Under the pieces are notes generated by a model. The model was not told the DNA's origin. It saw only the letters and a program-made list of their open reading frames with translations, and ran no database searches. A program made the translations under genes and the position numbers. From Eubacteriales bacterium (GTDB lineage: Bacteria > Bacillota > Clostridia > Oscillospirales > Oscillospiraceae): 64,000 nucleotides of DNA. The DNA is taken from the NCBI GenBank assembly GCA_030536515.1, contig JAUNPV010000002.1:186001-250000 (forward strand). Reading direction: 5' to 3'. Positions 12,509 through 28,405 of this stretch are shown here, piece by piece. Each line of letters opens with the position of its first letter. The stretch's first letter is position 1.

Positions 12509-12528
12509 GAGCGGATATCAGGGGCTTG

Positions 12529-14741
12529 CTAAATGTTTGGAAGGAAGGAATAGACGATGGTATCGGCATAGCGGTAGTAGAAGGAATCCCCCTGAGAAAG
12601 GCCGGACAGGATTTCCACGGCGCTGCCGTCACTGAGGCCGGTTTCCACCTCCACAGGGCTGCCCAGGGTGTCCGTTTCTGCATCGTAGGTGGTATACAGC
12701 ACGGTTGCGCCGTCGGTCTCCTGCAGGGCCTCCGCCGGGACCGTCAGGCAGTCCTCCCGCTGCTCCAGCGCCAGCGCAACAGAGGCGGTCATGCCGGCCA
12801 GCATTTTTTCCGTCCGGTCCATGGCGATGACGGCTTCATACTTTGTGCTGCCGCCGTCGCTTTCGCCCTCCGCTGCAACCTCTGCAACGGCTGCCGGGAA
12901 GCTCTGGCCCGGGATGGCATCCAGGGTCACCTGGGCCGTCATGCCCTCCCGGATGCGGCGGACATCCAGCTCGTCAATGCTGACGGTGACGGTGACCGTT
13001 TCCACCGGCACCAGGGCGCAGGCTGTGGTTTCCTCCAGGGGCTCTGTGGGGATTTTCTCAATCTGCTGCACGCCGCCTCCGCTTGGGGAGGGCGTTCCGC
13101 TGGCTGCGCCGCCGGGCATTTCCTGGCCCCCTTCAGTGGGCATTCCGCCGCCGGAGGCTCCGGGGCTTCGGATAATCCACACCAGATTGCCGCCAGCGTC
13201 ATAGGACAGCACCAGAATATCCCCTGCCGTCACCTGGGACAAATCCCCCGCCGCCCAGCCGTTTTCGCCGCAGGTATAGACCGTTGCACCGGGGAGGCTG
13301 GCAGGCTGGGTCATCTGGGACTGGTCCAGGCCGGACAAATCCCTATAGCTGGATAAAGACACCGGCGCAGGCGTTGCCTGAATGGAAACAGCCCCATAGG
13401 ATACCGCTGTGACCACTGCACCGTAGTTGGTGTAATCGGCGGGATTCCCCGGTTCCGAGGGTTCTGCTGGCTCGGTGGGCTCGGAGGGTTCTGACGGTTC
13501 CGAGGGTTCTGACGGCTCTGAGGGACTCCGGCCCCCTTGAAGGGGTCCGACGGCTCCGACGGGTCCCCTTCAAGGGGGCCGGAGTCCGTGCCTTCCGGCT
13601 CTGTGCCACCGTCTGTGACGTTGGACAGCAGCACCACCTGATACCCCGCTTCCTCAAATGCCAGCTCCTTCACCAGGGTTTCGTCCACGCCGGAGACAAT
13701 TCCCTCAAATTCGCTGTAAATGCAGCCGTCCTGGTACATCTGAATCAGACTGGTAAGCTGCGCCTCCATTTCCTCCCGCTGTCTCAGCAGGCTCTCCTGC
13801 CGGGCCGGGAGGGCGGTGTCCGTCAGCGTGAGCAGGGTGGCTCCCCTGCTGACCTTCTTCCCTTCCTCTGCGCAGACCTGGGAGACCGTTCCGGCGTAGC
13901 CGGTGATGCGAAGCTCGCTGTTGATGATTAAATTCCCGGTTCCGATTGTTTTTCCCCTTTCATCGGTGACGGTGACGGGGTCATCATATTGGGCAGTCTC
14001 ATCGGACAGGGTGATGTGGGCGATGCCCTCCTGGACCCTGGTGACCCGGCCGGCCTCCTCCGTTCCGTCGGGCAGGGTAACCGTTACGCTCTGGCCCGCC
14101 TCCAGCCCATCGGTTTCCAAATCCACCGCCATCAGGCCGTCCAGGGAGAGCCGCAGAAGCATCCCATGCCGGTACATGGTGCCGGCAACGGCTTTCTCCT
14201 TCACCGCATAAATTTCCTTCACACGGGCATCTGCCGGGGCGGAGATGACGGAGGACACCGCCGCATCCTTTTCGTCCTCAATTTCATCGTCCAGGGCATC
14301 CAGCCGCTCCTGTAGCTGCCGGATGCAGTCCATGACCGAGGATTTTTCCACTGTCAGCAGCACATCCCCCTGCTGCACACGCTGGCCGTTGGATACCAGA
14401 AACGCTTTGACCTCCACATCACAGGGGATTTTCACGGAAATGCTGTCCTCGTCCGACAAAGTTCCCGCGGTATACAGCATCCGGGTGACGGTTTCCCGCT
14501 CCGGGCTGCCGGACAGCACCGCCTGGGCCACCTCCCGGCCGCTGGCATCCTCCTGAGAGGGTGTCGGCAGGGCCGCAATGGCCAGGGCCAGCACCAGCAG
14601 GAACGCCAGAGGGGCGGCCCATTCCCGTTTCCGCCTCGGCGGGTCCTCGTCCTGCACATCCAGCTCCGGCATTTGCGTATCCGCCTTCTCGGGCAGCTGC
14701 TTTTTTTGTTGCTGAAATCGATGTTTTTTTGAACTTAACAT
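12529..14741 (-). pseudogene. Membrane-fusion protein of MacAB-like pump, frameshifted
   Basis: HlyD/MacA-type periplasmic adaptor paralogous to the gene at 16624-18267. The start ATG at 14741 opens a basic cytoplasmic tail, one membrane helix (about 45-62), a lipoyl half-motif with VEVKAFLVSNGQRVQQGD, a coiled coil and barrel segments. The frame is lost in a Glu-Pro-Ser repeat linker: the first frame runs into an out-of-frame tail ending at 13311, while the C-terminal adaptor half (SEPSEPTEPAEP linker to YSFLPNI) lies in another frame ending at 12529. The break coincides with a 65-bp perfect inverted repeat (13523-13587). Removing exactly those 65 bp joins the frames as EGTSEPSEPSEP. Unless recoded, only a truncated 476-residue product is made. 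Confidence 0.85.
13523..13587. repeat. 65-bp double-hairpin insertion in adaptor gene
   Basis: Perfect 23-bp inverted arms (GGACTCCGGCCCCCTTGAAG plus GGG, and the complement) separated by 19 bp. Each arm is itself a small hairpin (CCCCTT-G-AAGGGG), so the unit can fold as two linked hairpins, like a REP doublet. 65 is not a multiple of 3, and the insertion accounts for the frameshift. Confidence 0.85.
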
Positions 14742-14753
14742 GGTTTTCTCCTT

Positions 14754-15944
14754 TCATCCGCCGTAGTGCAGTGCATCGATGGGCGCCATTTTGGCCGCCT
14801 TGTTGGCCGGGTACAGCCCGAACACCACGCCAATCAGGAAGCAGAAGCCCACGGAAATCCACACCACATTGGCCTGGAGGCTGAAGGACAGCCCGATTCC
14901 CGATACGACAGCCGTCACCAGCCGCAGAATCCCCCAGGACAGGAAGATTCCAATGCCGCAGCCCAGCATACACAGCACCACCGCTTCCAGCAGAAACTGC
15001 TCCAAAATCACCGCCCGGCTGGCGCCGATGGCCTTTCGGATGCCGATTTCCCGGGTCCGCTCCGTCACCGTCACCAGCATGATATTCATAATGCCAATGC
15101 CGCCGACAACCAGGGAAATGCCTGCAATGCCCCCCAGGAGAATCTGCAAAATAGAGGTAACGGAGCTCATGGCCCCCTCCAGAACATCCTGGGAGGACAC
15201 CGTAAAGGCATCGTCATCCTCTTCAAGCCGTTCCAGCAGCTTTTCCGTGATGGCGGCCTCCGCCTGGTCCATGGTGCTGCCTGTGTCGGCGCTGACATAA
15301 AACTTTGTCACATCGGATGACAGCTCCCCGGACAGGCGGATTAACGTGGTATAGGGAATGTAGGCCACATAGGAGCCGGAGCCAAAGACCGCCGTCAGAG
15401 AATCCTCGTCCTCCTCCAGCACGCCAACCACCGTAAACTTGGTTCCGTCCAGAGAAATCTGCTGGCCCAGGCAGTCGGTGTAGCCGATGATATCCGTGGC
15501 TGCGCTTTCGGAAAGCACGCATACAAAGGTACTGTTTTCCACATCCGACCGCTTCAGGAACCGGCCCAGCAGCAGGCTCAGCTGCTGGATATCGGAATAG
15601 GCCGCCGTGGTACCGTAGACCTCCACGGTGGCATTGGTGGAGTCAAACTTACCGGTGACGGAGGCGGACTGGTAGGGGGCCGTCTGGCCGATGGCCGCCT
15701 CCTCAGAAAAGGCCTCCGCCTCCTTTAAGGACAGGGGCTGGCCCTTATCGTCGGATATGCTCACCGTCAGCAGGTTGCTGCCCAGGTCCGAAATGGTGTC
15801 CGTCACCTGGCCGGTGGCCCCGTTGACCAGACTCACCAGAATCACCAGGGCCATGACGCCGATGATAATGCCCAGCATGGTGAGAAAAGCCCGGAGCTTG
15901 TTGCCCGCAATGGATTTCATGGCCATTTTCATGCTCTGCATCAT
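14754..15944 (-). CDS. MacB-like ABC transporter permease
   Basis: Permease of a MacAB/FtsX-type ABC pump, thought to extrude peptides or antibiotics, or to act on envelope stress. 396 residues: first membrane helix (about 18-42, LRAFLTMLGIIIGVMALVIL), a large extracytoplasmic MacB periplasmic-core domain (about 45-260), then three helices in the C-terminal FtsX domain with the family motif VTERTREIGIRKAIGA. The start ATG follows GGAGGTGGAACC and overlaps the ATPase stop by 4 bp. It lies between the ATPase and the broken adaptor gene in the alarmone synthetase-efflux operon. Confidence 0.92.
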   Translation of the reverse strand: MMQSMKMAMKSIAGNKLRAFLTMLGIIIGVMALVILVSLVNGATGQVTDTISDLGSNLLTVSISDDKGQPLSLKEAEAFSEEAAIGQTAPYQSASVTGKFDSTNATVEVYGTTAAYSDIQQLSLLLGRFLKRSDVENSTFVCVLSESAATDIIGYTDCLGQQISLDGTKFTVVGVLEEDEDSLTAVFGSGSYVAYIPYTTLIRLSGELSSDVTKFYVSADTGSTMDQAEAAITEKLLERLEEDDDAFTVSSQDVLEGAMSSVTSILQILLGGIAGISLVVGGIGIMNIMLVTVTERTREIGIRKAIGASRAVILEQFLLEAVVLCMLGCGIGIFLSWGILRLVTAVVSGIGLSFSLQANVVWISVGFCFLIGVVFGLYPANKAAKMAPIDALHYGG

Positions 15945-16612
15945 GGTTCCACCTCCGTTAAGTGGCCGTCCCGGATGTGAATGACGCGGGAGGCCTGCCG
16001 GGCCACCTCCGGGTCGTGGGTGATGAGGACGATGGTGTTGCCCTGGCGGTGAAGCTCGTGGAAGATGTCCATAATCTCCTGGGTGGTTTTGGAATCCAGA
16101 TTGCCGGTGGGCTCGTCCCCCAGAATCAGGGAGGGGGCGGTGGCAATGGCCCGGGCAATGGCCACCCGCTGCTGCTGGCCGCCGGAAAGCTCCGTGGGCA
16201 GATGGTTGGCCCGCTTCATCAGATGCACCCGGTCCAGGGCCTCCTCCACCCGCTCCCGCCGCTCCTGCCGCTTGACCCCCTGGTAAATCAGGGGCAGCTC
16301 CACATTTTCCTGGGCGGTGAGCTTTGCAATCAGATTGAAGCTCTGAAAGACGAAGCCAATCTTCCGGTTGCGGATGCGGGCCAGCTCGTTTTCGGAATAA
16401 TCCTCAATGGGCGTTCCGTCCAGCAGGTATTCCCCCTCGTCGGCGGTGTCCAGGCATCCGATGATGTTCATAAGCGTGGACTTGCCGCTGCCGGAGGGGC
16501 CGATGATGCTGACAAACTCGCCGGGGTCAATGTGCAGGGAGGCGTGGTCCAGGGCGTGGACGGCCTCATGGCCCATCCAGTACACCTTTGATACATTTTT
16601 TAAGTCAATCAT
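15941..16612 (-). CDS. MacB/LolD-type ABC transporter ATPase
   Basis: Energising ATPase for the adjacent MacB-like permease, about 223 residues. Walker [10 protein letters not shown]-loop [10 protein letters not shown], signature [14 protein letters not shown], Walker [13 protein letters not shown] and the switch His in VLITHD are all intact. The preferred start is the ATG at 16612, with AGGTGATTGGAT in front; a TTG two codons earlier is possible. It sits 11 bp behind the intact adaptor gene and overlaps the permease start. Confidence 0.95.
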
Positions 16613-16623
16613 ATCCAATCACC

Positions 16624-18267
16624 TCACTGTTCCCGGCTGCCGGGCATACCGCCGCCGGGCATCTGCATTCCGCCTCTGCTGTCGTCGCCGGGTCTCTGCT
16701 GCCAGTCCATGCCGCCCTGGTTCTGGTTGCCGCCGGGCATGGGGAAGGCAAAGGCGTTTTCCTGAGACTCCGTGTAGTACACCGTGTCGCCCTCTTTAAG
16801 CCCCGAGGTGATCTCCACATATTTTCCGTTGGAAATGCCTATGGTGACCTCCACCATGCCGGTCAGCTCTCCGGTTTCCGCATTGCTGCCTGTATAGACA
16901 TAGGCCGTGGAGCTGGTTTTGTGGAGGGCATCCGCCGGAATCAGCAGGGCATTTTCCACGCCCTGGATTTGAATGGTTGCTGTGGCGGACATTCCGCCCA
17001 GCATTCCCTCCGCCTTCGGAACGCTGATTTCCGCCGTATAGGTGGTCACGCCGCCGGAGCTGGTGCCCGTGGTGTCAATTTCCAGAACCGTGCCGGTAAA
17101 GGTTTCGTCCTCAATGGAGTCCACGGTCACCGCCACCTCCTGGCCGATTTCCAGGGCGAGAATATCGCTTTCATCGATGGACACCGTCAGCGTCATGGTA
17201 TCATCGGGGCGGAGGGTCAGCAGGGTTTCGTTCTCCGCCTCGGTTTCCTCCGATTCAGCGTCGTCCTCCCTGTCCGGGTCATAGTCGACGCTGCCCACGG
17301 TCCCGGAAATTGGGGCGAGGATGGCCCCCTCCTGGTAAATTTGAATCAGGTCCTGCAGGTCCTCTTCCAGCGTCTCCCGCTCCCGCAGGATGCTGTCAAA
17401 GCTGGCGGTATACCCGGTGTCAGTCAGGGTCAGCAGGGTCTGACCGGCGCTGACCTTCTGGTTTTCCGAAACGGAAATACCGGAAACGGTGCCTGCATAG
17501 CCGGTCACCTTGAGGCTTTTGTGGATTGCAAGCTCCGCTGTGCCGATTTTGACTCCGCTGTCATCGAGAATGGTGACTGTCTCCCCCAGCTCCGGCCCGT
17601 TGTCCGTGACCAGAATCGTGGCGACACCATCATCTGCCTCCGCCACCGTGCCGTCCTTTTCCGTCCCGTCGGACAGCACCACGGTGACCTCGTCCTCCGG
17701 TTCCAGAGCCGCAGTTTCCAGCTGGGCCGCCATATTCCCGTCCAGGGACAGGAGCATCAGGGCATCCTTATCATACATGACGGAGGCTACATCGTCCCCT
17801 GTCCCGGCGTAAATGGCCTTGACCCGGCCGGTGAGGCCGGCTGTGATAGTGCTGCCCACGGTTTCATTTTTGGCGCTTTGCAGCTCATCGTCCAGTTCAT
17901 CCAGCTGCTCCTGCTTCTCCTCCATGGCGGAAATCACCGTGGAGGTGTTCACCGTTGCCAGAATATCCCCCTCGGCCACCGTATCGCCCCGGCTGACCAG
18001 GACGGTTTTGATTTCCACCCCCTGGGGGATTTCCACCGTCTCCACATCGTCATCCTGGAGCATCCCGGAGCCTGCCGCCGTGGTGCTGATGCTGCCGGTG
18101 GTGACCTGTGCCGTGAGGACCTCCTGGCTGAGCTGACTGCCGAATCGCTCGTCCACCTGCTGCCGAAGGAGCCGGGTGGCCAGGGTGGTGACAATCACGG
18201 CCAGCATCAGGCAGGTCAGGATTATCAAAGCAATCTTTTTCTTGGATTTTTTCGTTGGCTTTTTCAT
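16624..18267 (-). CDS. Membrane-fusion (MacA/HlyD-like) adaptor, intact
   Basis: Adaptor subunit of the pump, 547 residues. It has a Lys-rich N terminus, one membrane helix (about 11-30), a lipoyl half-motif IKTVLVSRGDTVAEGD, a coiled coil rich in Glu/Asp/Gln, beta-barrel segments, and MPGGNQNQGG-type Met/Gly-rich C-terminal sequence. It resembles the broken copy at 12529-14741 along most of its length, pointing to an old duplication in which each pump carries two adaptors. It is preceded by the alarmone synthetase (25 bp) and followed by the ATPase. The Met/Gly tail might bind metal or simply be a flexible linker; the sequence does not decide this. Confidence 0.88.
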   Translation of the reverse strand: MKKPTKKSKKKIALIILTCLMLAVIVTTLATRLLRQQVDERFGSQLSQEVLTAQVTTGSISTTAAGSGMLQDDDVETVEIPQGVEIKTVLVSRGDTVAEGDILATVNTSTVISAMEEKQEQLDELDDELQSAKNETVGSTITAGLTGRVKAIYAGTGDDVASVMYDKDALMLLSLDGNMAAQLETAALEPEDEVTVVLSDGTEKDGTVAEADDGVATILVTDNGPELGETVTILDDSGVKIGTAELAIHKSLKVTGYAGTVSGISVSENQKVSAGQTLLTLTDTGYTASFDSILRERETLEEDLQDLIQIYQEGAILAPISGTVGSVDYDPDREDDAESEETEAENETLLTLRPDDTMTLTVSIDESDILALEIGQEVAVTVDSIEDETFTGTVLEIDTTGTSSGGVTTYTAEISVPKAEGMLGGMSATATIQIQGVENALLIPADALHKTSSTAYVYTGSNAETGELTGMVEVTIGISNGKYVEITSGLKEGDTVYYTESQENAFAFPMPGGNQNQGGMDWQQRPGDDSRGGMQMPGGGMPGSREQ

Positions 18268-18292
18268 GTTGGGAACATCCTTTCAAATTTTA

Positions 18293-18892
18293 TCATCCTT
18301 TGCCCTCCATAATGTCCCGGATGGTCTGCATGGATAAATCGGTGGCCGCAATTTCATCGGCGCACCGCTTCAGCTCCCGGCGGATGAGGGCCTCATCCCG
18401 GATTTCCTTTTTGTATTTCAGCTCATGCTCCAGGGTCGCCCAAAAGTCAATGGCCATGGTTCGAATTTGAATCTCTGCAAGCACGTTTCTGGCGCATTCC
18501 GCCCGGATTCTGACCTGCAAATGGCAGCTTCTGTACCCGTTGGGCTTCGGGTAGGCAATGTAATCCTTCACGGCCAGAATCTCAATTTCCGGCTGTTCCG
18601 ACAGCCATTGGGCCACCCGGTAAACATCGTCAATAAAGCCGCAGATGATGCGGATACCGACGGCATCGTATACCTCCGTCAGGGCCGACCGGGCACACAC
18701 CGGAAGATTCAGCCGATTCAGCTTGGCCGTCATGCTCCTGGCGGTCTTGATGCGGGATTGGCACTTTTCAATGAGCTTCGTCTTGGCGCCATCCTCCGTT
18801 TCCAGCTGGCAGCGCCTTACCAGGCTCTGCAAAAGAGCCTCCGCCTCCAGCAGAGCCGGAAAGGCCGTCCCATAGAATTCCTCATCAGTCAA
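18293..18892 (-). CDS. Small alarmone synthetase (RelA/SpoT synthetase domain)
   Basis: Single-domain (p)ppGpp synthetase of the RelQ/RelP (SAS) kind, 199 residues, with no hydrolase, TGS or ACT domain. Core motifs are present: DAVGIRIICGFIDD, the substrate strand YIAYPKPNGYRSCHL and the Gln/Glu-containing EIQIRTMAIDFWATLEH. The start is a TTG at 18892 behind GAAGGCGATAAA. It is the first gene of the efflux operon; the promoter box at 19069-19100 lies about 170 nt upstream. SAS genes in Firmicutes are commonly induced by wall-active antibiotics, which fits its place in an envelope-stress unit; that role here is inferred. Confidence 0.88.
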   Translation of the reverse strand: MTDEEFYGTAFPALLEAEALLQSLVRRCQLETEDGAKTKLIEKCQSRIKTARSMTAKLNRLNLPVCARSALTEVYDAVGIRIICGFIDDVYRVAQWLSEQPEIEILAVKDYIAYPKPNGYRSCHLQVRIRAECARNVLAEIQIRTMAIDFWATLEHELKYKKEIRDEALIRRELKRCADEIAATDLSMQTIRDIMEGKG

Positions 18893-18918
18893 TTTATCGC
18901 CTTCTTTGCTTTGTGCAA

Positions 18919-18941
18919 CCGGGCCGCCCTTGGCGGCCCGG
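18919..18941. terminator. Hairpin in leader of alarmone synthetase operon
   Basis: CCGGGCCGCC-CTT-GGCGGCCCGG, a perfect 10-bp stem about 25 nt before the start codon on the minus strand. It has no T run. It may modulate translation or be a leftover terminator. A second GC-rich hairpin lies at about 19004-19027. Confidence 0.45.
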
Positions 18942-19068
18942 CGCTATGTCAATACAAAGCCGGCGGATGTGTGCGTAAGAGAGCTATGAAGAACGGAGGT
19001 GCCCGCCCTGCCCCGCGGCCGGGCGGGTAAAACGGATAAGTACCCTGCATCGGCTTTGTATACTGCAC

Positions 19069-19100
19069 ATTCTATACCCGGAACCTAAAGCGGAGTTAAA
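19069..19100 (-). promoter_or_regulatory. OmpR-type activator box and -10, alarmone/efflux operon
   Basis: Minus strand: TTTAA (19096-19100) and TTTAG (19085-19089) start 11 bp apart, then 10 bp, then TAGAAT (19069-19074). The sequence around the second pentamer, CTTTAGGTTCCGG, matches the box at 20.69 kb and the layout matches the box in front of RR1. No -35 hexamer is needed if an activator binds here. Confidence 0.65.
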
Positions 19101-19150
19101 ATGCACACAGGGAAGCCTATGAACATTTCGTAAATCCATTCTGAAAATCC

Positions 19151-20425
19151 CTACAGATTCACATAGCTGCACGGATTCACATACACGCCGTTCAGGGAAA
19201 TTCCGAAGTGCAGATGGTCGCCGGTGGAAACCCCGGTGGAGCCTGTTGCACCAATGTACTGTCCGGCGCTGACAATCTGACCGGTGCTGACCCCGATGGA
19301 GCTCAGGTGCATATAGATGGAGCGAAAGCCATCCTGATGGTCAATCTGCACATAGTTGCCTGCGGAGTTGCTCCAGCCTGCAATGGCCACAATGCCCGCA
19401 CGGGATGCAACCACCGGCCAGCCTGTGCCGGTATCCAAATCCACGCCCTGGTGGTATGTGGATGCGCCTGCGGTGGGCGAGGTCCGATAGCCGAAGGGAC
19501 TGGTAATGGAGGTATAGCTGCAAGGCACAAGCCAGCTGCTGGAGGCAGCTGTTGTTCCGGTGCTGCTGGCCCCTTCATTGGATGGTGCCGTTGTCGGAGG
19601 TGTGTAGGTCGCCATATAGGCCTCCCATTCCCGCTGCTTGGCCTCGCTGTACTCCTGCTCCTTCTGCGCAATTTCCTCCAGAAACTGTGCTTCCTGCTCC
19701 TCAAAATCCTGTTCCAGCTCTTCCAAATCGTCGGCCTTTTCCAGCAGCTCCTGGAGCAGGGCCACTGCCTCCGCCTGCTTTGCATCCAGCTCCTGCTCGG
19801 TCTGATCCAGCTCGGATTTTGTCGATTCCAGAGCCGATTTTTCCTCTGCCAGCACATCCTGCGCCGCCCCCACCGCATTCTTTGCGTCGCTGAGCTCCTG
19901 AATCCGCCTTTGGTCTGAGGCCGCTATTTCTTCCACCATGCTCAGCCTGTCAAGCAAATCAGAAAAGCTATTTGCCTTGAACACAACCTCCCAATAGGAA
20001 ACTTCCCCATCCTCCTCCATGGCACGTACACGCACCTTGTTGTCCTCACTCAGCTGGGCATAGCGGTCCTCTGCCGTATCCAGCTCCTCCTGCTTATCGG
20101 CGATGAGAATATTATAGGCGGAAATCTGGTCCGTGATATTGGTGATTTGAGTCGTCAGCAGCTGCACCTGCTGGTCTATCACGTTTTTCTGTTCCAGGAT
20201 GTTCTGAATCTCGTCCTCATTTTCCTTGAACTGGTTCTGGACCTCCTGAATCTGGGCAGAAATTTCCTCCTTTTCCTTTTTCAGCGCATCAATCTGCTTT
20301 TGAATCTCGCTGGAGGATGCCGCATAGGCCCGGCCCGGCAGCAAGCACAACAGCGGAGCCGCCGTAATCACTGCCAGTAAAAAGCAGGCTGTCGCCGATT
20401 TGATTGTTCTATGTTTTTTCATCAT
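19151..20425 (-). CDS. EnvC-like M23 murein hydrolase with coiled coil
   Basis: Secreted peptidoglycan endopeptidase or amidase activator, 424 residues. Signal peptide (about 1-36, with the hydrophobic stretch ACFLLAVITAAPLLCLLPG), a long coiled coil (about 37-265), a Ser/Thr-rich linker, and a C-terminal M23 LytM domain (about 295-424). The domain keeps the zinc ligands: HQGVDLD (His, Asp) and DHLHFG (HxH). An active enzyme is therefore likely, unlike degenerate EnvC itself. ATG ATG at 20425/20422 follow AAAGGAG. The long leader between its putative box at 20673-20704 and the start codon is occupied by a MITE-like element. Beside RR1/HK1, it is a natural target of that system. Confidence 0.9.
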   Translation of the reverse strand: MMKKHRTIKSATACFLLAVITAAPLLCLLPGRAYAASSSEIQKQIDALKKEKEEISAQIQEVQNQFKENEDEIQNILEQKNVIDQQVQLLTTQITNITDQISAYNILIADKQEELDTAEDRYAQLSEDNKVRVRAMEEDGEVSYWEVVFKANSFSDLLDRLSMVEEIAASDQRRIQELSDAKNAVGAAQDVLAEEKSALESTKSELDQTEQELDAKQAEAVALLQELLEKADDLEELEQDFEEQEAQFLEEIAQKEQEYSEAKQREWEAYMATYTPPTTAPSNEGASSTGTTAASSSWLVPCSYTSITSPFGYRTSPTAGASTYHQGVDLDTGTGWPVVASRAGIVAIAGWSNSAGNYVQIDHQDGFRSIYMHLSSIGVSTGQIVSAGQYIGATGSTGVSTGDHLHFGISLNGVYVNPCSYVNL

Positions 20426-20437
20426 TTCTGCTCCTTT

Positions 20438-20458
20438 ATACGATTTCTTAATAAAAAC
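20438..20458. repeat. Short AT-rich dispersed motif (copy a)
   Basis: ATACGATTTCTTAATAAAAA plus C. The same core, in either orientation, recurs at 22889-22908, 30280-30300 and 42631-42651, always next to a gene end or start. Confidence 0.45.
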
Positions 20459-20462
20459 TTTG

Positions 20463-20590
20463 TGCTTATCGGGTTAGCTCAGCCTGTCATTGCAAGCCCG
20501 TCCGTTTTCCCATGTTTTCCATAGGAAAACATGGGCGGCGGCCTGGGGTCAGGCCGCCCTACAGGCTTTGCTGAGCAAAGTCGATAAGCG
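20463..20590. repeat. MITE-like element, copy 2
   Basis: 128 bp with ends TGCTTATCGG and TCGATAAGCG. Inside are the CATTGC arm, the CCCATGTTTTCC / GGAAAACATGGG hairpin and the GGCGGCCTG / CAGGCCGCC hairpin, in the opposite order to copy 1. AAAACTTT before and AAAATCTTT after it could be an imperfect target duplication. It occupies the putative 5' leader of the M23 hydrolase gene. The rest of 20591-20720 holds the activator box and nothing else I recognise. Confidence 0.7.
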
Positions 20591-20672
20591 CAAAAATCTT
20601 TAACAGGATTTTTATTCAGCCTGACGGCAATTGGGGAAGCTCTGAATCAGAGCCGGCCTGGCTCATTATCTA

Positions 20673-20704
20673 AGTCTACATCCGAAACCTAAACTGTACT
20701 TTAA
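20673..20704 (-). promoter_or_regulatory. OmpR-type activator box and -10, M23 hydrolase
   Basis: Minus strand: TTAAA (20700-20704) and TTTAG (20689-20693) 11 bp apart, 10 bp, then TAGACT (20673-20678); GATAAT 8 bp further is an alternative -10. CAGTTTAGGTTTCGG matches the box at 19.08 kb. It is 265 bp from the M23 start, separated by MITE copy 2. Confidence 0.5.
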
Positions 20705-20722
20705 ATAGACCGGAAATTTCAC

Positions 20723-20750
20723 AAAAAACCGCCCTGCCATGCAGAGCGGT
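20723..20750 (-). terminator. Intrinsic terminator of RR1/HK1 operon
   Basis: Minus strand: ACCGCTCTGC-ATG-GCAGGGCGGT stem of 10 bp followed by six Ts, 8 bp past the HK1 stop. Confidence 0.85.
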
Positions 20751-20758
20751 CTTTGGGG

Positions 20759-21985
20759 CTATTTGACTGTGAACACCGCCGTAACGGTCAAGCTGCGGCC
20801 GTCCGGGGATTCGGCGTAGATGCTGCCTTTATGAGCCTCCACAATGGCCTTGGCGATGGACAGGCCGATGCCGTAGCCCCCGGTTTGGGAGTTGCGGGAT
20901 TTGTCCCCCCGGTAGAAGCGGTCAAACAGGTGGCGCAGGTCCTCCTTTTCCATGCCGGCGCAGGTGTTATGCACCGTCAGCATCAAGAAGCGTTCCTCCC
21001 GGCAAAGGGTCACGGAAATGCTTCCTCTTTCGTCCGAATATTTCAGTGCGTTGTCCAGCAATATCGTCACCAGCTGGCGGATGGCCTTTTCATCGCCGCA
21101 GCAGGAAAGCAGCGGCGTCACCTGAACCGTCAGGGACTTCTCCTGCATCCGGGCCGGGGCATCAAAGGACTGGGCGGTCTCCGCCACCACGTCGGAAATG
21201 GGAAAGTCCAGCATCTGGAAGCGGTTTTCGTCCTCCTCCATCCGGGACAGGAACACCAGCTCCTGAATCAGCCCCGCCAGCCGGTCGGTCTGCTTCTGGA
21301 TGTCCTGGAGCCATTCGTTTTCCGCCAAATCCATTTGCAGGATGTCCACGTCGGCGTTGATGACCGTCAGGGGTGTCTTCAAATCATGGCTGGCGTTGGT
21401 GATGAACTGCTTCTGCTTTTCGTTGCTTTCCGCAATGGGCCGGACCACCCGGGCCGACAGAACCACCAGCAGCAGGGAAACCGCCAGGAAGCCCGCCAGG
21501 GAGATGCCTGCGCTGATGACCAGGAAATGCTGAACCGACCCCAGCTGCCGTCCACGGTCCAGGAACACAATCATGCCCCCCTCACCGTTTTCTCTGACGG
21601 CATAGCGGTAATCGCCAAGAAAGCCTCTGGTTTTGCCTGAGGCCATGACCTGCCGGGCATAGGCGGCGGCATCCTCCTGGCTGACGGCGGCAATTTTCCC
21701 GGTGTCCGCCAGCTCCACCTCCCCCGCCGGGTTCAGCCGGACGGTGAAAAACCGGGTCTCAAAGGGCAGCTCCGGGGAGTCCTGGCGGTCAAAGCGCCTG
21801 CTGTCCGGCTTGGACTTTTCCGGGAACGTGCCGTCGTTGGACAATAGATACTCCAGCATACTGTCCGCAGAGGAAACGACGTGGCGGTAGTTCAGCAGAT
21901 TCACCGTTCCCATAATGACGGACAGCACCAGCAGCACCAGCCCCATGGCCAGCACAATGAATTTGATTCTCAGCTTCTGAATCAT
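20759..21985 (-). CDS. Sensor histidine kinase HK1
   Basis: Membrane sensor kinase paired with RR1, about 408 residues. Two membrane helices (about 8-30 and 150-172 region) enclose a short extracytoplasmic sensor. Then comes a HisKA dimerisation domain with the phospho-acceptor His in FITNASHDLKTPLTVIN and a HATPase domain with N box (LLDNALKYS) and G boxes (GGYGIGLSIAK). The start is the ATG at 21985, which overlaps the RR1 stop as ATGA; an open stretch upstream belongs to RR1 in another frame. The ligand is unknown. Neighbouring boxes suggest it governs the murein hydrolase and the efflux operon, hence envelope stress. Confidence 0.92.
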   Translation of the reverse strand: MIQKLRIKFIVLAMGLVLLVLSVIMGTVNLLNYRHVVSSADSMLEYLLSNDGTFPEKSKPDSRRFDRQDSPELPFETRFFTVRLNPAGEVELADTGKIAAVSQEDAAAYARQVMASGKTRGFLGDYRYAVRENGEGGMIVFLDRGRQLGSVQHFLVISAGISLAGFLAVSLLLVVLSARVVRPIAESNEKQKQFITNASHDLKTPLTVINADVDILQMDLAENEWLQDIQKQTDRLAGLIQELVFLSRMEEDENRFQMLDFPISDVVAETAQSFDAPARMQEKSLTVQVTPLLSCCGDEKAIRQLVTILLDNALKYSDERGSISVTLCREERFLMLTVHNTCAGMEKEDLRHLFDRFYRGDKSRNSQTGGYGIGLSIAKAIVEAHKGSIYAESPDGRSLTVTAVFTVK

Positions 21986-22656
21986 GGCAGCTCCTCCAGC
22001 ACATACCCGGCGTTTCGCTGGGCCCGAATCTGCACGTCGGCGTGTAATGCCGCCAGCTTCTTCCTTAAATAGGAGATGTACACCCACACCACGTTGATCT
22101 CCACCTCGCTGTCATAGCCCCAGATTTTCTCCAGGAACCGCTCGGCGGTGAGCATACAGTTGTGGTTCAGCATCAGCATTTCCATCATCTGAAATTCCTT
22201 GTTGGCCAGTCGGAAGCTGCCGGCGGGAGAGGAAAGCTCGAAGGTGGCCCGGTCCAGGGTGATGTTCCCCAGGTGGAGCTTGGCATCCATCTGCTCATTC
22301 TGCCCACGGGTCATGGCCCGGATTCTTGCCAGCAGCTCCTTTGTGTGAAAGGGCTTGGTCAGATAGTCGTTGGCCCCGCTGTCCAGCCCCAGCACCTTGT
22401 CGTCCACCTCGGATTTGGCGGTGAGCATCAGCACGGGAACGGTGTTTCCCTGGGCCCTGATGGTCTTCAAAACGGAAATCCCGTCCAGCTTCGGCATCAT
22501 CACATCCAGAATGACCCCGTCATAGCTGCCGCTTTCCAGATAGGCCAGGGCCTCCTCGCCGTTGTAGACGGCATCGGCGGAGTAGTTGTTTTTTTGCAGG
22601 ATGGCAATGATTGCTTTTGATAAGGATTTTTCATCCTCTGCAAGGAGCAGTCTCAT
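21982..22656 (-). CDS. OmpR-family response regulator RR1
   Basis: Response regulator, 224 residues. Receiver domain 1-115 with acidic pocket AEDE, phosphorylation site Asp51 (YDGVILDVMMPKLDG) and the conserved Lys in LTKPFH. C-terminal winged helix (about 130-222) with VVWVYISYLRKKL as recognition region. A box of the OmpR type overlaps its own promoter (22690-22721). Boxes of the same layout lie in front of the M23 gene and the alarmone synthetase operon, so autoregulation plus control of these two is the simplest reading. Confidence 0.93.
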   Translation of the reverse strand: MRLLLAEDEKSLSKAIIAILQKNNYSADAVYNGEEALAYLESGSYDGVILDVMMPKLDGISVLKTIRAQGNTVPVLMLTAKSEVDDKVLGLDSGANDYLTKPFHTKELLARIRAMTRGQNEQMDAKLHLGNITLDRATFELSSPAGSFRLANKEFQMMEMLMLNHNCMLTAERFLEKIWGYDSEVEINVVWVYISYLRKKLAALHADVQIRAQRNAGYVLEELP

Positions 22657-22689
22657 GGAATTCGCCTGCCTTTTCTTTGGATTGCCTCT

Positions 22690-22721
22690 ATCATATCACA
22701 GAAACTTTAAGCGGGGTTAAA
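22690..22721 (-). promoter_or_regulatory. OmpR-type activator box and -10 of RR1/HK1
   Basis: Minus strand: TTTAA (22717-22721) and TTAAA (22706-22710) 11 bp apart, 10 bp, TATGAT (22690-22695). The first half, TTTAAC-CCCGC-TTA, matches the 19.08-kb box almost base for base. The start codon is 34 bp downstream. Confidence 0.7.
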
Positions 22722-22830
22722 AATTTTTGAACGCCGCCGGAAAAATCAGCTGTGCCGCACCGTAAGCCCCCGCTTGCCCGGGCAGCCGTACCACTTACCG
22801 CCTTATTTTGGCAGGTTGCCCTGCCGGGTA

Positions 22831-22858
22831 TTTACATCAATCTTTTTTCTGCTATGCT
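22831..22858 (+). promoter_or_regulatory. Possible promoter of the gene remnant
   Basis: TTTACA, 16 bp, TATGCT on the plus strand, about 110 bp ahead of the remnant ORF. In the 22722-22968 interval I otherwise see only a short GC-rich hairpin near 22811 and a copy of the AT-rich motif at 22889-22908. Confidence 0.35.
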
Positions 22859-22968
22859 GGGCCCAGGGAGGTGGGAAGCATGAAGATAACCATTTCTTCA
22901 TAAAAATCTTTCAGATGTTTGTAATAGAGCTTGCACGGCTGCTTCTGCGGTAAAGGAGAAGGTGTGAT

Positions 22969-23206
22969 ATGGAACAAACAGCAAACCCGCCATGGGCGCA
23001 GAAAATGCAGATTGGAGACAGCATTCCTTTCGGCGCATACACATGGCGGGTTCTTGATATTCAAACTGGGGCGGCGCTGATTCTCACGGAGGATAGGCAT
23101 ACGGGGAAACAATGGGCAAAAATGCAATCTCAGCGGTGTCTACCACCCGGTCAATCACGATGTGAAAGGCGGCGTGCGCCCGGTTCTGTGGCTGAGCCTG
23201 CTGTGA
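22969..23206 (+). pseudogene. Remnant of a small DUF6273-like protein
   Basis: The ATG at 22969 follows AAAGGAGAAGGTGTGAT. The first 45 codons read like the start of a DUF6273-type module (GDSIPFGAYTWRVLDIQTG, then ALILTEDRHTG). The middle of the domain is absent. The typical C-terminal end GGVRPVLWLSLL reappears in a second frame and stops at 23206. The module therefore looks internally deleted and frameshifted. Its 3' end overlaps the MATE gene on the opposite strand. The family call rests on remembered motifs and is tentative; it could instead be an unrelated short ORF. Confidence 0.5.
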
Positions 23207-24557
23207 CCGGAGGATTTACCTTCATCTCCCCCAGCACCTTCAATTGAATGGGAACGGCGCAGATCAGCGTCAGCACATCACTGACGGCCTGGGTCATCTG
23301 CAGGCCCAGCAGGCCAAAGGCAGACGTCAGGACCCACACCAGCGGGATAAAGAAAATTCCCTGTCTGGCCATGGCCAGGAAGGTAGCGGGGACGGTCCGG
23401 CCGATGGTCTGGCACATCATGTTGCTCATCACAATCCAGCTCTGGAACACAAAGGTCACACATTGCAGCCGCAGGGCCGTCGCGCCGATGGCGATGACCT
23501 GGGGGTCGTCCCGGAACAGGGACACCAGCCCGGGGGCAAAGGCAAAGCCAAGGACACTGACCGCCAGAAGGAGCACCGTGGAGCTCTTAACGCAGAACCA
23601 GAAGCCCTGCTTGACCCGGTCATAGAGCTTTGCCCCGTAATTGAAGCCGCACACCGGCTGGAAGCCCTGACCGAAGCCAATCATGGCGGAGGCTCCGAAC
23701 ATCATAATCCGCTGGACAATGCCCATGGCCGCAATGGCGGCATCCCCGTAGGGACGGGCCACCTGGTTGAGGCAGATGGTGGCAACACTGGCCAGGCCCT
23801 GCCGGGCCAGAGAAGGAAGGCCGCCCTGGATGATGGTTCGGAAATAGAACCATTTCACCTTCACATTGGAAATGCGGATGCGCAGATTCCCGCCCCGGGT
23901 GCAGCCGATGAGCAGCAGGCAGAAGCTGACGAACTGACTGACGATGGTGGCCAGGGCCGCCCCGCTGACACCCATGTGAAAGCCGAAAATCAGCAGCGGG
24001 TCCAGGGCGATGTTCAGCACAGCGCCGCTGGTGATGCCCACCATGGCATAGGCCGCGCTGCCCTGATAGCGCAGCTGGTTATTGAGCACCAGCGACGAGG
24101 TCATCCAGGGAGCGCCCAGGAGGATGATGCGCAGATAGTCCTTTGCATACGGGAGGATTGTTTCGGTGGAGCCCAGGAAGATGGCCAGCGGCTCCAGAAA
24201 GAGCTGCCCAAGGACGCAAATCAGGCTGCCCGCTGCAATGGCATAGAAAAAGCCGGTGGCGGCCATATCCGAGGCGGCCTGATAGTTCTGCCTTCCAAGC
24301 TCCCGTGAGATGTAATTGCCGCTGCCGTGGCCAAAGAAAAACCCAACGGCCTGAATAATGGCCATCAGGGAAAAAACCACCCCCACTGCGCCGGTGGCGG
24401 AGTTGCTTTTCAGCATCCCCACGAAGAAGGTATCGGCCATGTTGTAAAAGGCCGTGACCAGCATACTGACAATGCACGGCACCGCCAGTTTCAGAATCAG
24501 CGTCTTGACCGGCGCTTCGGTCATCAAATGAAATTTCTGTTCCTGTTTGTCTTCCAT
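23151..24557 (-). CDS. MATE-family efflux transporter
   Basis: Multidrug and toxin extrusion transporter, cation/drug antiporter of the inner membrane. 468 residues with about 12 hydrophobic segments. MATE features include the N-terminal VKTLILKLAVPCIVSMLVT helix and the repeated PxLxxGFH-type loops (LLIFGFHMGVSGAALATIVSQ). The last 20 residues (GSATEPGARRLSHRD) are hydrophilic and antisense to the pseudogene's end, so the true C terminus may have been altered by a deletion that brought the two genes together. Its own promoter lies at 24607-24635. The substrate cannot be told. Confidence 0.92.
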   Translation of the reverse strand: MEDKQEQKFHLMTEAPVKTLILKLAVPCIVSMLVTAFYNMADTFFVGMLKSNSATGAVGVVFSLMAIIQAVGFFFGHGSGNYISRELGRQNYQAASDMAATGFFYAIAAGSLICVLGQLFLEPLAIFLGSTETILPYAKDYLRIILLGAPWMTSSLVLNNQLRYQGSAAYAMVGITSGAVLNIALDPLLIFGFHMGVSGAALATIVSQFVSFCLLLIGCTRGGNLRIRISNVKVKWFYFRTIIQGGLPSLARQGLASVATICLNQVARPYGDAAIAAMGIVQRIMMFGASAMIGFGQGFQPVCGFNYGAKLYDRVKQGFWFCVKSSTVLLLAVSVLGFAFAPGLVSLFRDDPQVIAIGATALRLQCVTFVFQSWIVMSNMMCQTIGRTVPATFLAMARQGIFFIPLVWVLTSAFGLLGLQMTQAVSDVLTLICAVPIQLKVLGEMKVNPPVTAGSATEPGARRLSHRD

Positions 24558-24579
24558 AATGTCTCTCTTTCTGTTTGCA

Positions 24580-24635
24580 CAGTCTTTTCCTATATTTTAT
24601 ACTTCTATTATACGCAAAAGACTGCGTAATGTAAA
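24580..24635 (-). promoter_or_regulatory. Promoter with long dyad in front of MATE gene
   Basis: Minus strand: TTTACA (24630-24635), 17 bp, TATAAT (24607-24612). Arms CAGTCTTTT (24580-24588) and AAAAGACTG (24616-24624) form a perfect 9-bp inverted repeat around the -10 and the start site. Confidence 0.65.
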
Positions 24636-24660
24636 GAGCGGATTTTGGACGAACGAATTC

Positions 24661-24697
24661 AAAAGGAGGGAAGCCGGCGTAGGTCCGGCTTCCCTCC
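24661..24697 (-). terminator. Intrinsic terminator of acyltransferase/GT8 operon
   Basis: Minus strand: 13-bp stem GGAGGGAAGCCGG / CCGGCTTCCCTCC with a 7-nt loop, followed by TTTT. It begins 4 bp past the stop of the GT8-acyltransferase fusion. Confidence 0.85.
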
Positions 24698-24700
24698 CTT

Positions 24701-26470
24701 TTAAATTGCCTCGGCGTTTTCGGTTTTGTATTGCAGGGGGATGCCGTACTCCCCTTCGTAGATGGCCTTCCACTGCTCAAAGTTCTCCGCCTTCATCTGC
24801 TCGGCGTTTTTCCTGGCCGTAAGGCCTTCCCTGGGGTATATGGGCGTTCCCACATGGACGGTGTACTCCTGGACGAAGAAGCCGTCCGGTCCCAGAATGC
24901 CGCTGTCCTTCATGGTGATGAAGCAGGGCAGCACGGGGACCATGTTTCTGGCGGCAAAGGAGAAGGCGCTGTCCTTCAGCGGCTTCGGCTTGCGGTAGTT
25001 CCACCACATACTCTGCTCCGGGTAGAACAGGATGAAGTGCCCGGCCTGCAGCAGCTCGTTGACCGCCCTGACGAACTTTTTCATGGTATTGGGGTTGGAG
25101 GACAGGGGCAGGGTGTCGCAGTTGCGCATGAGAAAGCCGTAAAAGCCCGGGAAATTCGTATAGTTGCCCTCCCGGATCACCCGGTAGAACCGCCGGGCCT
25201 TATGCCCCGAGGCCATGTAGGCCAGGTGAATGGCAAAGGAATCAAAGGCATTGAAGTGGTTGCAGGTGATGATGGCCCCGCTGTCCAGGTTTGCAAAGTT
25301 CTCCACGCCCACGATGTCCTTGATAATCAGCTGGTTGTTTTTCAGCAGGTACTTCACAAATTTCTTTGCCGCATAGAAGGCGGTCTGGGTTTTGATGGTG
25401 GCGCTCAGAGACTTGCGGACGTATTCAATCTGGTCGGGGGTCAGCACCTTGGTGGGAGGGTCCTGTTCCACATCCATGTCAAAAATGCCCAGCCGCTCCA
25501 GCTCGTCGATTTTCTCCACCACCGCCACCCGGTCCGGGGCCTGGGCCATGCGGACCCGGGCCATGTAGTGGTCGGGGCGGCTGATTTCCGCCAGGGCGGT
25601 CTGCACCAGCCGCTCTCCCCCGGCGGCATCACGTTGGCGCTGTTCATCGGTGTAGTTTTCCAGCTCCCGGCAGATGTCCTCATACACGCTGGTTTTTTCC
25701 GCATACTGCCAGAAATACCCCTTCAGGCGGCAGTCCCGGCAGTGCCAGGGCTTGGAGGCCATGATATAGTGGACAATTTTCATCTCCTCCTCCGGGCAGA
25801 TGATTTTGCCGAATATCTGGGTATTCCACCCCGGCTCCAGCCACAGCACCCGGTCCTTGCACAGCACATTCAGATAGTCCTGGTCCTGGGCAACCACGAA
25901 ATTGTAGGTGTTCAGCAGGTTCACAAATCTTCCCAGCAGCTGCTTTTCCCGGAAGGCCCGGCAGTTCAGCAGCAGAATGCCTGCGCTGAAATAGGCGTTG
26001 CGGTCAATGCCCAGGACGGTTTCCGCATAATCGCCGAACACCTTCTCCTGGATAATCACCTGGTCCTTGACGGCGCCAAGGTAGTTGTCCTTCAGGTCGT
26101 GGTCGTAAAGCTGCGAAATATCGCCCACCACGACGGTGTCGCTGTCGAGATAGACCGCCTTGTCGTACTGGGGGAACAGCTCCGGGATGAACAGGCGATA
26201 ATAGGTGGTGCTGGTAAAGTAATCCCGGGTGGGCAGCTTTTCCCGGATGGCCTCCAGCTGCTCTGTCACATCCGGGAAGGAGACGGTCACATTGGCTGCC
26301 TGCATGGACAGAAGGGCCTGCCGGTGCGCATCACTCAGGCCGGTGTTCAGAAAATAGATGTGATACTGCCTGGTTTGGTCTGCATTTTCCAGCATGGAAG
26401 TCAGAGACACAACGGCCAGCTCGGCAAAGTTATCGTCGCAGGCGTAGAAAATCGGGATGCTGTTATTCAT
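24701..26470 (-). CDS. GT8 glycosyltransferase-acyltransferase fusion
   Basis: Two enzymes in one chain of about 589 residues. N-terminal GT8 glycosyltransferase (about 4-260) with the UDP-sugar/metal DxD in YLDSDTVVVGD and the later W-[NH]-TQIFGK strand; a linker helix region (about 270-370); then a PlsC-type acyltransferase (about 375-570) with the HX4D box NHFNAFDSF and FYPEQSMW. The start is the ATG at 26470 behind AAGGAGAGTCTTGACC. It is the third gene of an operon with another acyltransferase and another GT8 enzyme. Coupled sugar and acyl transfer suggests synthesis of an acylated glycolipid or wall glycan; the product is not known. Confidence 0.85.
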   Translation of the reverse strand: MNNSIPIFYACDDNFAELAVVSLTSMLENADQTRQYHIYFLNTGLSDAHRQALLSMQAANVTVSFPDVTEQLEAIREKLPTRDYFTSTTYYRLFIPELFPQYDKAVYLDSDTVVVGDISQLYDHDLKDNYLGAVKDQVIIQEKVFGDYAETVLGIDRNAYFSAGILLLNCRAFREKQLLGRFVNLLNTYNFVVAQDQDYLNVLCKDRVLWLEPGWNTQIFGKIICPEEEMKIVHYIMASKPWHCRDCRLKGYFWQYAEKTSVYEDICRELENYTDEQRQRDAAGGERLVQTALAEISRPDHYMARVRMAQAPDRVAVVEKIDELERLGIFDMDVEQDPPTKVLTPDQIEYVRKSLSATIKTQTAFYAAKKFVKYLLKNNQLIIKDIVGVENFANLDSGAIITCNHFNAFDSFAIHLAYMASGHKARRFYRVIREGNYTNFPGFYGFLMRNCDTLPLSSNPNTMKKFVRAVNELLQAGHFILFYPEQSMWWNYRKPKPLKDSAFSFAARNMVPVLPCFITMKDSGILGPDGFFVQEYTVHVGTPIYPREGLTARKNAEQMKAENFEQWKAIYEGEYGIPLQYKTENAEAI

Positions 26471-27305
26471 GGTCAAGACTCTCCTTCTCGAATTTTTTCT
26501 TCAGATAAATGTACTCATACAGGATATCGTCAAACTGGTAATAGCGAAACACCCGGTGCACCCGGCTTACATCCCACTGCTTGATGTTGTCCGTGTGGGG
26601 ATAGGGCAGCCAGAACAGGCGCTTGGAAAAGTGGCGGACCACCGTGGTGCTGTGCAGAAATTTCTGGTCGTTGAATTTCTGGGGCAGCAGCTTTCTGGCT
26701 GTGGTGCTGCGGATAATGGCGCTCTGGTCTGCAAAAACCAGCTTTTTCGTTTTGATGAGCTGGCGGGCCTTGGCAAACAGCCCGGTCTGGCGGATTTTTT
26801 TCATGTTCAGCAGCAGGACCCCGGCGTTGACATAGCCGGGGCTGACCAGGTACTTGCCGTAGTGGTCCCGGGCGGCGGCGTATTCCACGCCTTCAATATC
26901 CTGATCGTACAGCAGCCGGATGTCCCGGTTCAGCAGGATGTCCACGTCCAGGTACAGGAGCTTCTCCGGAATCTGGGGCACCATATCCGCAAAAAGCCGA
27001 ATCAGGGTGTAGGGGGAGCAGTAGGCCTGCTCGTTGGGGCAGCGGTCAAACTCTTTCATGTACAGCGCCGTCACATCGACCTTCACCACCCGGTTTTCCG
27101 GGTGATAGTCCCAGACGACCTTCTGCAAGAAATCCGCCTGGGCATCGGTGATGGGGACATACTGCGCCTTGATGTGGGACACATCCATGGTGAACAGGTA
27201 GAAGCAGAAGGGCTCCTCGGTCCGGGTCCGCTTCAAAATAGAAAGAGCGCAGGTAAGCACACCGTCAAAAACCCGGTCATTCCCCGCAAACAGGATGTTG
27301 ATCAT
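26463..27305 (-). CDS. GT8-family glycosyltransferase
   Basis: Retaining glycosyltransferase of family 8, 280 residues, cytoplasmic. The DxD motif is in LLYLDVDILLNRDI (near residue 120) and the N-terminal strand is ILFAGNDRVFDGVLTCALSI. The ATG follows GGAGGGACTCCG and overlaps the acyltransferase end by 29 bp; its own stop overlaps the fusion gene start. Its GT8 domain is a paralogue of the one fused to an acyltransferase downstream. Acceptor and donor cannot be deduced. Confidence 0.88.
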   Translation of the reverse strand: MINILFAGNDRVFDGVLTCALSILKRTRTEEPFCFYLFTMDVSHIKAQYVPITDAQADFLQKVVWDYHPENRVVKVDVTALYMKEFDRCPNEQAYCSPYTLIRLFADMVPQIPEKLLYLDVDILLNRDIRLLYDQDIEGVEYAAARDHYGKYLVSPGYVNAGVLLLNMKKIRQTGLFAKARQLIKTKKLVFADQSAIIRSTTARKLLPQKFNDQKFLHSTTVVRHFSKRLFWLPYPHTDNIKQWDVSRVHRVFRYYQFDDILYEYIYLKKKFEKESLDHE

Positions 27306-28077
27306 CGGAGTCCCTCCTTCTGTATTCTATGACCTCCACATTGCTGCTTTTGGCCCGCTCTGCCATGGCCTCAAAAACCCGGTCCCGCAGCTCTCTTTTC
27401 CGCTGAGGCAGCGGGAGGGCTTCCTTGGGGGAAAAGGGGCCGTCGATGTAGGTGACCATCTGCACCCGCTTGCCCCTTTTTTGGTAGGTGTTGGTAAAGC
27501 AGAAGACGCTTCCGCCGTATTTGATGGGATAGCCGAAGGACTTTTCCGAAAAGGGGCGGATGCCGGTATAATAGGGCCAGATGTGGGCCTCGGGGTAGAT
27601 GCAGATGCCATGGCCCCTTTCCATATGATGCTTCACAGCGGCCACAAAATTCCGGCTTGCTGCCAGATCGTCCGGCAGCGGCAGCGCCCCCATGCTGGGG
27701 GTCACTCGGCCCAGATACGGCATGGACACATTGTTGGGGTGGACAATGACACACACGTCCCTGGGAAAGGCCAGCATGGTAGGCACAAAGGGGTCGGCCA
27801 TTGCCTGGGTGTGGTTGCCGTAGAGAAAGAAGCCCTTCTTCCCTGCCCCCTTCAGCTTTTCCCGGCCCACGATTTTGTGGTGAAATTTCAGCTTCAGATA
27901 CACCCAGCCTATGGGCATGGCCACCACCCGATACCAGAAAAAATGGGTCAGGCGCTTCCAAAGGCTTGTATGCACATAGACCCAGCTGCCGTCGATGGTC
28001 CTGGGCGTGATTTGCGCCGCCGAAAATTCATCGCTTAACGGGTCATCGTAGTAGATGACCTGTTTTTCCTTCTTCAT
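27277..28077 (-). CDS. PlsC-like (LPLAT) acyltransferase
   Basis: Lysophospholipid/glycerol-phosphate acyltransferase-like protein of about 266 residues. Motif I reads GNHTQAMADP, one residue longer than the usual HX4D, and motif III reads YPEAHIWP in place of FPEG. Such departures are seen in clostridial family members, so activity is likely but the acceptor may differ. I start at the ATG at 28077 (GGGGG-AAAATGGG spacing); an upstream in-frame ATG lacks a ribosome site. First gene of the operon whose promoter carries the RR2-type box at 28112-28144. Confidence 0.85.
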   Translation of the reverse strand: MKKEKQVIYYDDPLSDEFSAAQITPRTIDGSWVYVHTSLWKRLTHFFWYRVVAMPIGWVYLKLKFHHKIVGREKLKGAGKKGFFLYGNHTQAMADPFVPTMLAFPRDVCVIVHPNNVSMPYLGRVTPSMGALPLPDDLAASRNFVAAVKHHMERGHGICIYPEAHIWPYYTGIRPFSEKSFGYPIKYGGSVFCFTNTYQKRGKRVQMVTYIDGPFSPKEALPLPQRKRELRDRVFEAMAERAKSSNVEVIEYRRRDSDDQHPVCGE

Positions 28078-28111
28078 CCCATTTTCCCCCAGACTCTCTT
28101 TATACCTACCG

Positions 28112-28144
28112 ATTCTACTACCGGATTCTAAACTGAAACGAAAC
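28112..28144 (-). promoter_or_regulatory. OmpR-type box and -10, acyltransferase/GT8 operon
   Basis: Minus strand: the 17-mer GTTTCGTTTCAGTTTAG (28128-28144), then 10 bp, then TAGAAT (28112-28117). The identical 17-mer with the same spacing stands in front of RR2 at 30.19 kb. Its inner TTTCG and TTTAG start 11 bp apart. Confidence 0.75.
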
Positions 28145-28147
28145 AAA

Positions 28148-28390: not shown

Positions 28391-28405
28391 TAAAAAAATA
28401 TGGAA

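Follow-up and report, generated by a model that had tools for sequence, protein, structure and literature searches.

We consider it very probable that three promoter boxes in the 64,000-nucleotide stretch of Eubacteriales DNA analysed here (the window) are sites for RR1, an OmpR-type response regulator encoded in the same stretch. RR1 would use them to activate its own operon with the sensor histidine kinase HK1, the gene of an M23 peptidase (M23), and an operon in which a small alarmone synthetase (SAS) is followed by a MacAB-like exporter, the whole forming a portable regulon with a presumed role in envelope stress. An earlier note on this DNA had proposed this circuit, and its interpretation is largely supported; all three boxes that it had described were found, each on the minus strand and each at the head of its own gene group:

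22690..22721, minus strand: predicted RR1 box of the RR1-HK1 promoter, TTTTAA-CCCCG-CTTAAA, N10, TATGAT, with the letters TTTAACCCCGCTTAAAGTTTCTGTGATATGAT

20673..20704, minus strand: predicted RR1 box of the M23 promoter, TTTAAA-GTACA-GTTTAG, N10, TAGACT, with the letters TTAAAGTACAGTTTAGGTTTCGGATGTAGACT

19069..19100, minus strand: predicted RR1 box of the SAS/exporter promoter, TTTTAA-CTCCG-CTTTAG, N10, TAGAAT, with the letters TTTAACTCCGCTTTAGGTTCCGGGTATAGAAT

In the frame used for streptococcal CiaR, each box is laid out as hexamer-N5-hexamer, with a period of 11, followed by 10 bp and then the -10 element (TAnnnT), which can be read as a direct repeat of the OmpR/PhoB type over the -35 region. 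The earlier note had described two AT-rich pentamers 11 bp apart and then 10 bp to the -10, and had not likened this to CiaR. The layout is the same in all three boxes, whereas the note's further remark that the flanks match holds for the M23 and SAS boxes, which have TTTAGGTTYCGG in common, and fails for the RR1 box, which lacks it. In the circuit that we propose, HK1 would partner RR1, and phosphorylated RR1 would sit as a tandem dimer on the two hexamers 11 bp apart, replacing a -35 element and recruiting RNA polymerase, in a CiaR-like manner, to the -10 exactly 10 bp downstream. It would in this way activate its own operon, the peptidoglycan-hydrolase-type gene M23, and the operon of SAS and the MacAB-like exporter; what we infer here is that RR1 binds and is phosphorylated, that it activates rather than represses, and that the signal comes from the envelope. 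Because CiaR has the same geometry and a recognition helix that agrees at nine of 13 residues, it is very likely that RR1 would act from the -35 position as CiaR does.

The pattern TTWAA-N6-TTWAR-N10-TANNNT matches three times in the 64 kb and never in 100 shuffles, though it was itself derived from the three window boxes. To break this circularity, 24 promoters of RR1 homologues from other genomes were inspected, and 14 of them were used for a first matrix that holds no window sequence; the ten left out comprise eight below 60% identity (L031, L033, L034, L038, L039, L081, L082, and L083) and two at 60-63% identity with a poor fit to the template (L047 and L032, the latter with a TTTCAG repeat in its place). 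With this matrix the window boxes rank first to third at 34.0, 27.1, and 19.4, a thin margin over the next site at 18.8, and sites of at least 14 appear in two of 20 shuffled windows, the best at 17.6. A second matrix was built from 25 boxes, all of them taken from other genomes and including 11 target boxes added later; it gives the window boxes 33.2, 32.8, and 25.8 and the next site 16.4, with no site of at least 14 in any of 20 shuffles. The earlier note had named hundreds of equal matches as the pattern that would speak against it; a sequence-only profile made from the same 25 boxes, again without window sequence, finds four matches at E<=10 in the 2.63-Mb genome, and the three boxes rank first to third among them (E 0.0089, 0.0105, and 0.053; these values are rough, 150 of 165 first-look candidates having been scored).

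Matches to RR1 at E<=1e-80 are present in 21 of the 391 genomes of the class, its own included. A held-out set of 20 RR1 loci outside the training set (324 kb; a second match in G297 was left out) contains 39 sites scoring at least 18, where each of five shuffles has 3-6. At a score of at least 24 it contains 26 sites, and the shuffles 0-1 each. Counting a site of at least 18 within 200 nucleotides (nt) of the start of a match, RR1 has a box upstream in 11 of 20 loci, the VTC gene in eight of nine, and SAS in the single case, so that the conservation in relatives which the earlier note had asked about is borne out, while 38 of 4000 random 200-nt stretches hold such a site. The VTC count excludes L220, whose VTC gene sits at a contig edge, and in the ninth VTC case there is a box at a greater distance upstream, at a glycosyltransferase gene of the same direction. 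By the same count a box precedes HK1 in none of 17 loci (matches below 35% identity left out), DUF4956 in one of 11, the Cthe_2159-type gene in two of 15, and the exporter genes for HlyD1, the ATP-binding cassette (ABC) ATPase, and MacB in none of two, three, and one, respectively. Whole-genome searches of ten other genomes returned 14 matches at E<=0.1, spread over nine of the ten, with 11 at the RR1 locus (four of these being training boxes), one at a VTC-DUF4956 operon, and two elsewhere in G215. In G242, the boxed VTC-DUF4956 operon is on a contig other than that of RR1.

In 19 of the 46 loci with SAS, a gene resembling RR1 stands upstream in the same orientation, and 12 of the 19 have HK1 in between; in L051, HK1 appears at the cut edge of the locus. 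SAS itself is headed by a box in L037 and L216. The commonest boxed partner in relatives is one absent from the earlier note, the VTC-DUF4956-Cthe_2159 operon. Its VTC gene is headed by a box in L048, L049, L051, L077, L218, L222, and L272, where it was confirmed by Pfam, and in further loci where it was identified by tblastn alone, and Pfam places DUF4956 and Cthe_2159 in the operon in L077 and L051. Pfam assigns the third gene to Cthe_2159, so that the name CotH, considered for it at first, was withdrawn. In L049 a boxed RR1-HK1 pair, a boxed VTC gene, and SAS stand in succession, and in L048 and L051 the order is HK1, boxed VTC gene, SAS; L216, with a Cthe_2159 gene and a DUF4956 fragment and no VTC match, does not join SAS and VTC in this way. 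In L231, from the held-out set, an exporter operon of the order HlyD1-ABC-MacB-HlyD2 lies beside RR1 with a box at its head (ABC 77% and MacB 62% identical to those of the window); this box starts 216 nt before the HlyD1 match and 16 nt before the open frame, and was thus counted as outside the 200-nt limit. In two of the training loci, L043 and L044, a box is followed by a Trypsin_2 (HtrA-like) gene; neither gene has a PDZ match, and no gene of this type was identified at the three window boxes. A box also heads an arylsulfotransferase gene in L051 and a cyclophilin-domain gene in L216. As the box in related Clostridia heads RR1-HK1, the VTC-DUF4956-Cthe_2159 operon, SAS, an HtrA-like protease, and an exporter, the regulon would be a portable one whose surface targets vary by species. 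The control of RR1 by itself, of SAS, and of the MacAB-like exporter, each put forward in the earlier note, gains support from boxed RR1 promoters, boxes at SAS, and the boxed L231 operon of other genomes.

The recognition helix of RR1, VVWVYISYLRKKL, is nearly unchanged among its orthologues, and across related regulators the geometry of the promoter repeat is constant while its letters shift with the helix. The repeat TTTWAR goes with the helix VVW..SYLRKKL; the helix HVEVYVGFLRKKL and the VW..SFLRKKL group both have TTTCAG, and NVEVYMSFTRKKL has TTTCAA. Exceptions include L027 and L019, and several promoters show no clear repeat. Of 49 regulator promoters, 36 reach a generic repeat score of at least 6, compared with 2.3% of shuffles. 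These pairings suggest that the hexamer follows from the recognition helix by a simple code, with which targets might be assigned to further OmpR-type regulators of the group that are uncharacterised.

L031-L034 and L066 have SAS directly after the RR1-like gene, and no match to a kinase separates the two (in L032 the matches are about 180 bases apart). A TTTCAG-type repeat is found in L031-L034, and in L031 and L066 it also lies upstream of a gene for an HtrA-PDZ protease. In L050, a single open frame at about 5878-6372 fuses the start of an RR1-like receiver to the end of SAS, a fusion that a deletion or an artefact of assembly may explain.

Several observations weigh against the regulon as proposed. 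The 14 first training boxes were selected from the 24 loci by their fit to the template of the finding itself, and of the 11 target boxes that joined them afterwards, four were chosen by eye. The fourth match in the genome, a partial one at E 0.116, is only 1 bit under the third. For nine of the 20 RR1 genes in the held-out set, no box of at least 18 lies within 200 nt; two of the nine, in L224 and L227, are downstream of a boxed VTC operon, and a third, in L231, is downstream of the boxed exporter operon. The two G215 boxes head nothing recognised, and the VTC gene of the window's own genome (on C2) is without a box, contrary to expectation. Queries with SAS and M23 gave 60 loci with flanks of about 1.5 kb, two of them the window's own. 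Of the remaining 58, 10 are SAS-type, 19 long Rsh, and 29 M23, and their best sites score only 17.2 and 17.6; as no site exceeds 17.6, SAS and M23 are not general targets. No strong box was found at the M23 homologues scanned in relatives, even in L180, which is near RR1 in G020, and the M23 leader in the window is about 240 nt long and holds a repeat element. The control of M23 proposed in the earlier note accordingly keeps the box in this genome in its favour and finds no counterpart in those homologues, making M23 a weaker candidate than the other targets. Lastly, the hexamers of CiaR sites invariably end in G according to the excerpts of PMC3091779, and only two of the six window half-sites have this final G; for this reason we do not assign RR1 to CiaR.

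If RR1 binds the boxes, it might do so as a repressor that covers the -35 region and blocks polymerase until a signal relieves it, and the overlap of the site with the -35 region, where repressors bind too, would suit this. We think it unlikely, however, considering that none of the three boxes has a sigma-70-type promoter in the consensus scan and that CiaR-activated promoters have the same fixed spacing of 10 bp to the -10. Less probable again is that the boxes belong to another OmpR-family regulator with a similar site. A search with RR1 does return 33 matches from the genome at E<=0.001, and paralogues share the general geometry, but the regulator that comes closest after RR1 itself has only 42% identity to it, the letters of the box follow the recognition helix in most groups, and it is RR1 itself that the box heads in over half of the held-out loci.

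Activation by RR1 can also be set against the idea that the likeness of the boxes is an accident of AT-rich promoters or the result of recent local duplication, for which one could cite the TTTAGGTTYCGG shared by the M23 and SAS boxes and the two paralogues of the M23 gene that lie side by side on C43. The enrichment of boxes in held-out loci and their specificity in the whole genome leave this scarcely credible, and in pairwise comparison the boxes are 53-72% identical while the 150 bases on either side are 23-33% identical, no more than expected by chance, for which reason recent duplication of the promoters was dropped.

The closest comparator is the streptococcal CiaRH system, for which the excerpts of PMC3091779 give a site of TTTAAG-N5-TTTAAG with the -10 ten bases on, the recognition helix VVEVYVSKVRKKL, and HtrA as a strong target. 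Within the scope of that source, RR1 is similar to CiaR in being an OmpR-type regulator with a hexamer-N5-hexamer repeat and a -10 ten bases downstream. The helices agree at nine of 13 residues (VVEVYVSKVRKKL in CiaR, VVWVYISYLRKKL in RR1), and the boxed HtrA-like (Trypsin_2) genes of two relatives may be a further likeness; RR1 differs in that the boxed genes here are SAS, the VTC operon, the exporter, and M23. The relPRS operon of Streptococcus mutans lies near the ABC exporters rcrRPQ (PMC4963387, in part), and the synthetase gene is the one named first in that operon, whereas in the window the RR1-HK1 genes lead and SAS is headed by a box of its own; also unlike relPRS and rcrRPQ, the exporter here is MacAB-like and, judged by gene spacing, would be in one operon with SAS. 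VraRS controls relP/relQ in Staphylococcus aureus and WalKR controls relP (sasA) in Bacillus subtilis, according to the excerpts of PMC10117726. The circuit proposed here resembles both, as far as that source describes them, in placing alarmone synthetases under two-component, cell-wall-stress control, and since VraRS, WalKR, and relPRS are known, two-component control of an alarmone synthetase is not in itself new. To our knowledge, the VraRS and WalKR pairs are not neighbours of the synthetase genes; here, unlike in those systems, a neighbouring pair shares its box with SAS. A literature search of openly licensed papers found no RR1-type regulon, and the present one, in Clostridia, supplies a precise site together with a candidate regulator through which a neighbouring two-component system would exert alarmone control.

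In Gram-positive Pel clusters, a polyphosphate polymerase/DUF4956 pair and CotH are accessory genes (PMC7112168, in part), and a Clostridium perfringens locus has VTC and CotH genes (PMC2879425, in part). The boxed VTC operon is similar, as far as those passages go, in combining a polyphosphate-polymerase-type gene with DUF4956, and differs in that the third gene is Cthe_2159 and RR1 boxes head the operon. VTC proteins would, from their family, make polyphosphate. We suggest tentatively, and as somewhat less probable than its opposite, that a dedicated two-component system of Clostridia brings a pair of stress signals, (p)ppGpp (through SAS) and polyphosphate (through the VTC-type polymerase), into a single regulon with surface repair and export through a CiaR-like box.

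The genes of the window that bear on the circuit are the following:

21982..22656, minus strand: RR1, OmpR-type response regulator (Response_reg and Trans_reg_C), with the helix given above

20759..21985, minus strand: HK1, sensor histidine kinase (HisKA and HATPase_c)

20723..20754, minus strand: terminator-like hairpin with a six-U end between HK1 and the M23 box, from fold prediction

19151..20425, minus strand: M23 peptidase with a PcsB-type coiled coil (CC_PcsB and Peptidase_M23)

18293..18892, minus strand: SAS, small alarmone synthetase (RelA_SpoT domain), TTG start codon as listed

16624..18267, minus strand: HlyD-type adaptor 1 (HlyD1), 25 nt downstream of SAS

15941..16618, minus strand: ABC ATPase of the MacB/LolD type

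14754..15944, minus strand: MacB-like permease (MacB_PCD and FtsX)

13311..14741, minus strand: HlyD-type adaptor 2 (HlyD2), amino-terminal part, with a further part in another frame at 12529-13416

The ATG of HK1 overlaps the stop codon of RR1. The hairpin after HK1 has a predicted energy of -20.9 kcal/mol (z -2.5), equalled in three of 200 shuffles, and has no entry in the consensus terminator scan; folding found no strong hairpin in the interval between M23 and the SAS box, and the consensus promoter and terminator scans gave no more matches than in shuffles. The SAS protein of 199 amino acids has PF04607 as its sole Pfam match, a stand-alone synthetase domain without a hydrolase domain, and its best PDB matches are small GTP pyrophosphokinases, including YwaC and YjbM; it is predicted to be an enzyme of the (p)ppGpp-making kind. 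The gaps along SAS, HlyD1, ABC, MacB, and HlyD2 are 25, 5, -4, and 12 nt, so that a single operon is likely. All parts of a MacAB-type exporter are there, namely the HlyD-type adaptor, the MacB-type ATPase, and the MacB_PCD/FtsX permease, and neither of the separate ATPase and permease genes reaches the NCBIfam cut-off for MacB (966 bits). HlyD2 is split over two overlapping frames, and its L231 counterpart is one frame of 720 amino acids, suggesting a frameshift or an assembly error. A search of 12000-32000 with Rfam gave only two weak matches, both inside the HlyD2 gene at 13521-13589, one on each strand, with E 0.0089 and 0.34 and scores far under the gathering scores.

The fourth match of the whole-genome profile, G000:C39:87380-87404 (L126), is directly upstream of another response-regulator gene and is without a well-placed -10. 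A second pair of boxes in the window, at 28112-28143 and 30171-30202 on the minus strand, shares GTTTCGTTTCAGTTTAG and has the same 10-bp distance to the -10; it sits at the RR2-HK2 promoter and at acyltransferase/glycosyltransferase genes, and similar boxes precede RR2 orthologues in L242, L243, L244, and L245, and not in several others. The repeat in the M23 leader, at about 20459-20595, is palindromic and resembles a miniature inverted-repeat transposable element, with 57 matching pieces in its own genome including itself, and a copy similar to it lies upstream of an RR2 paralogue (L258).

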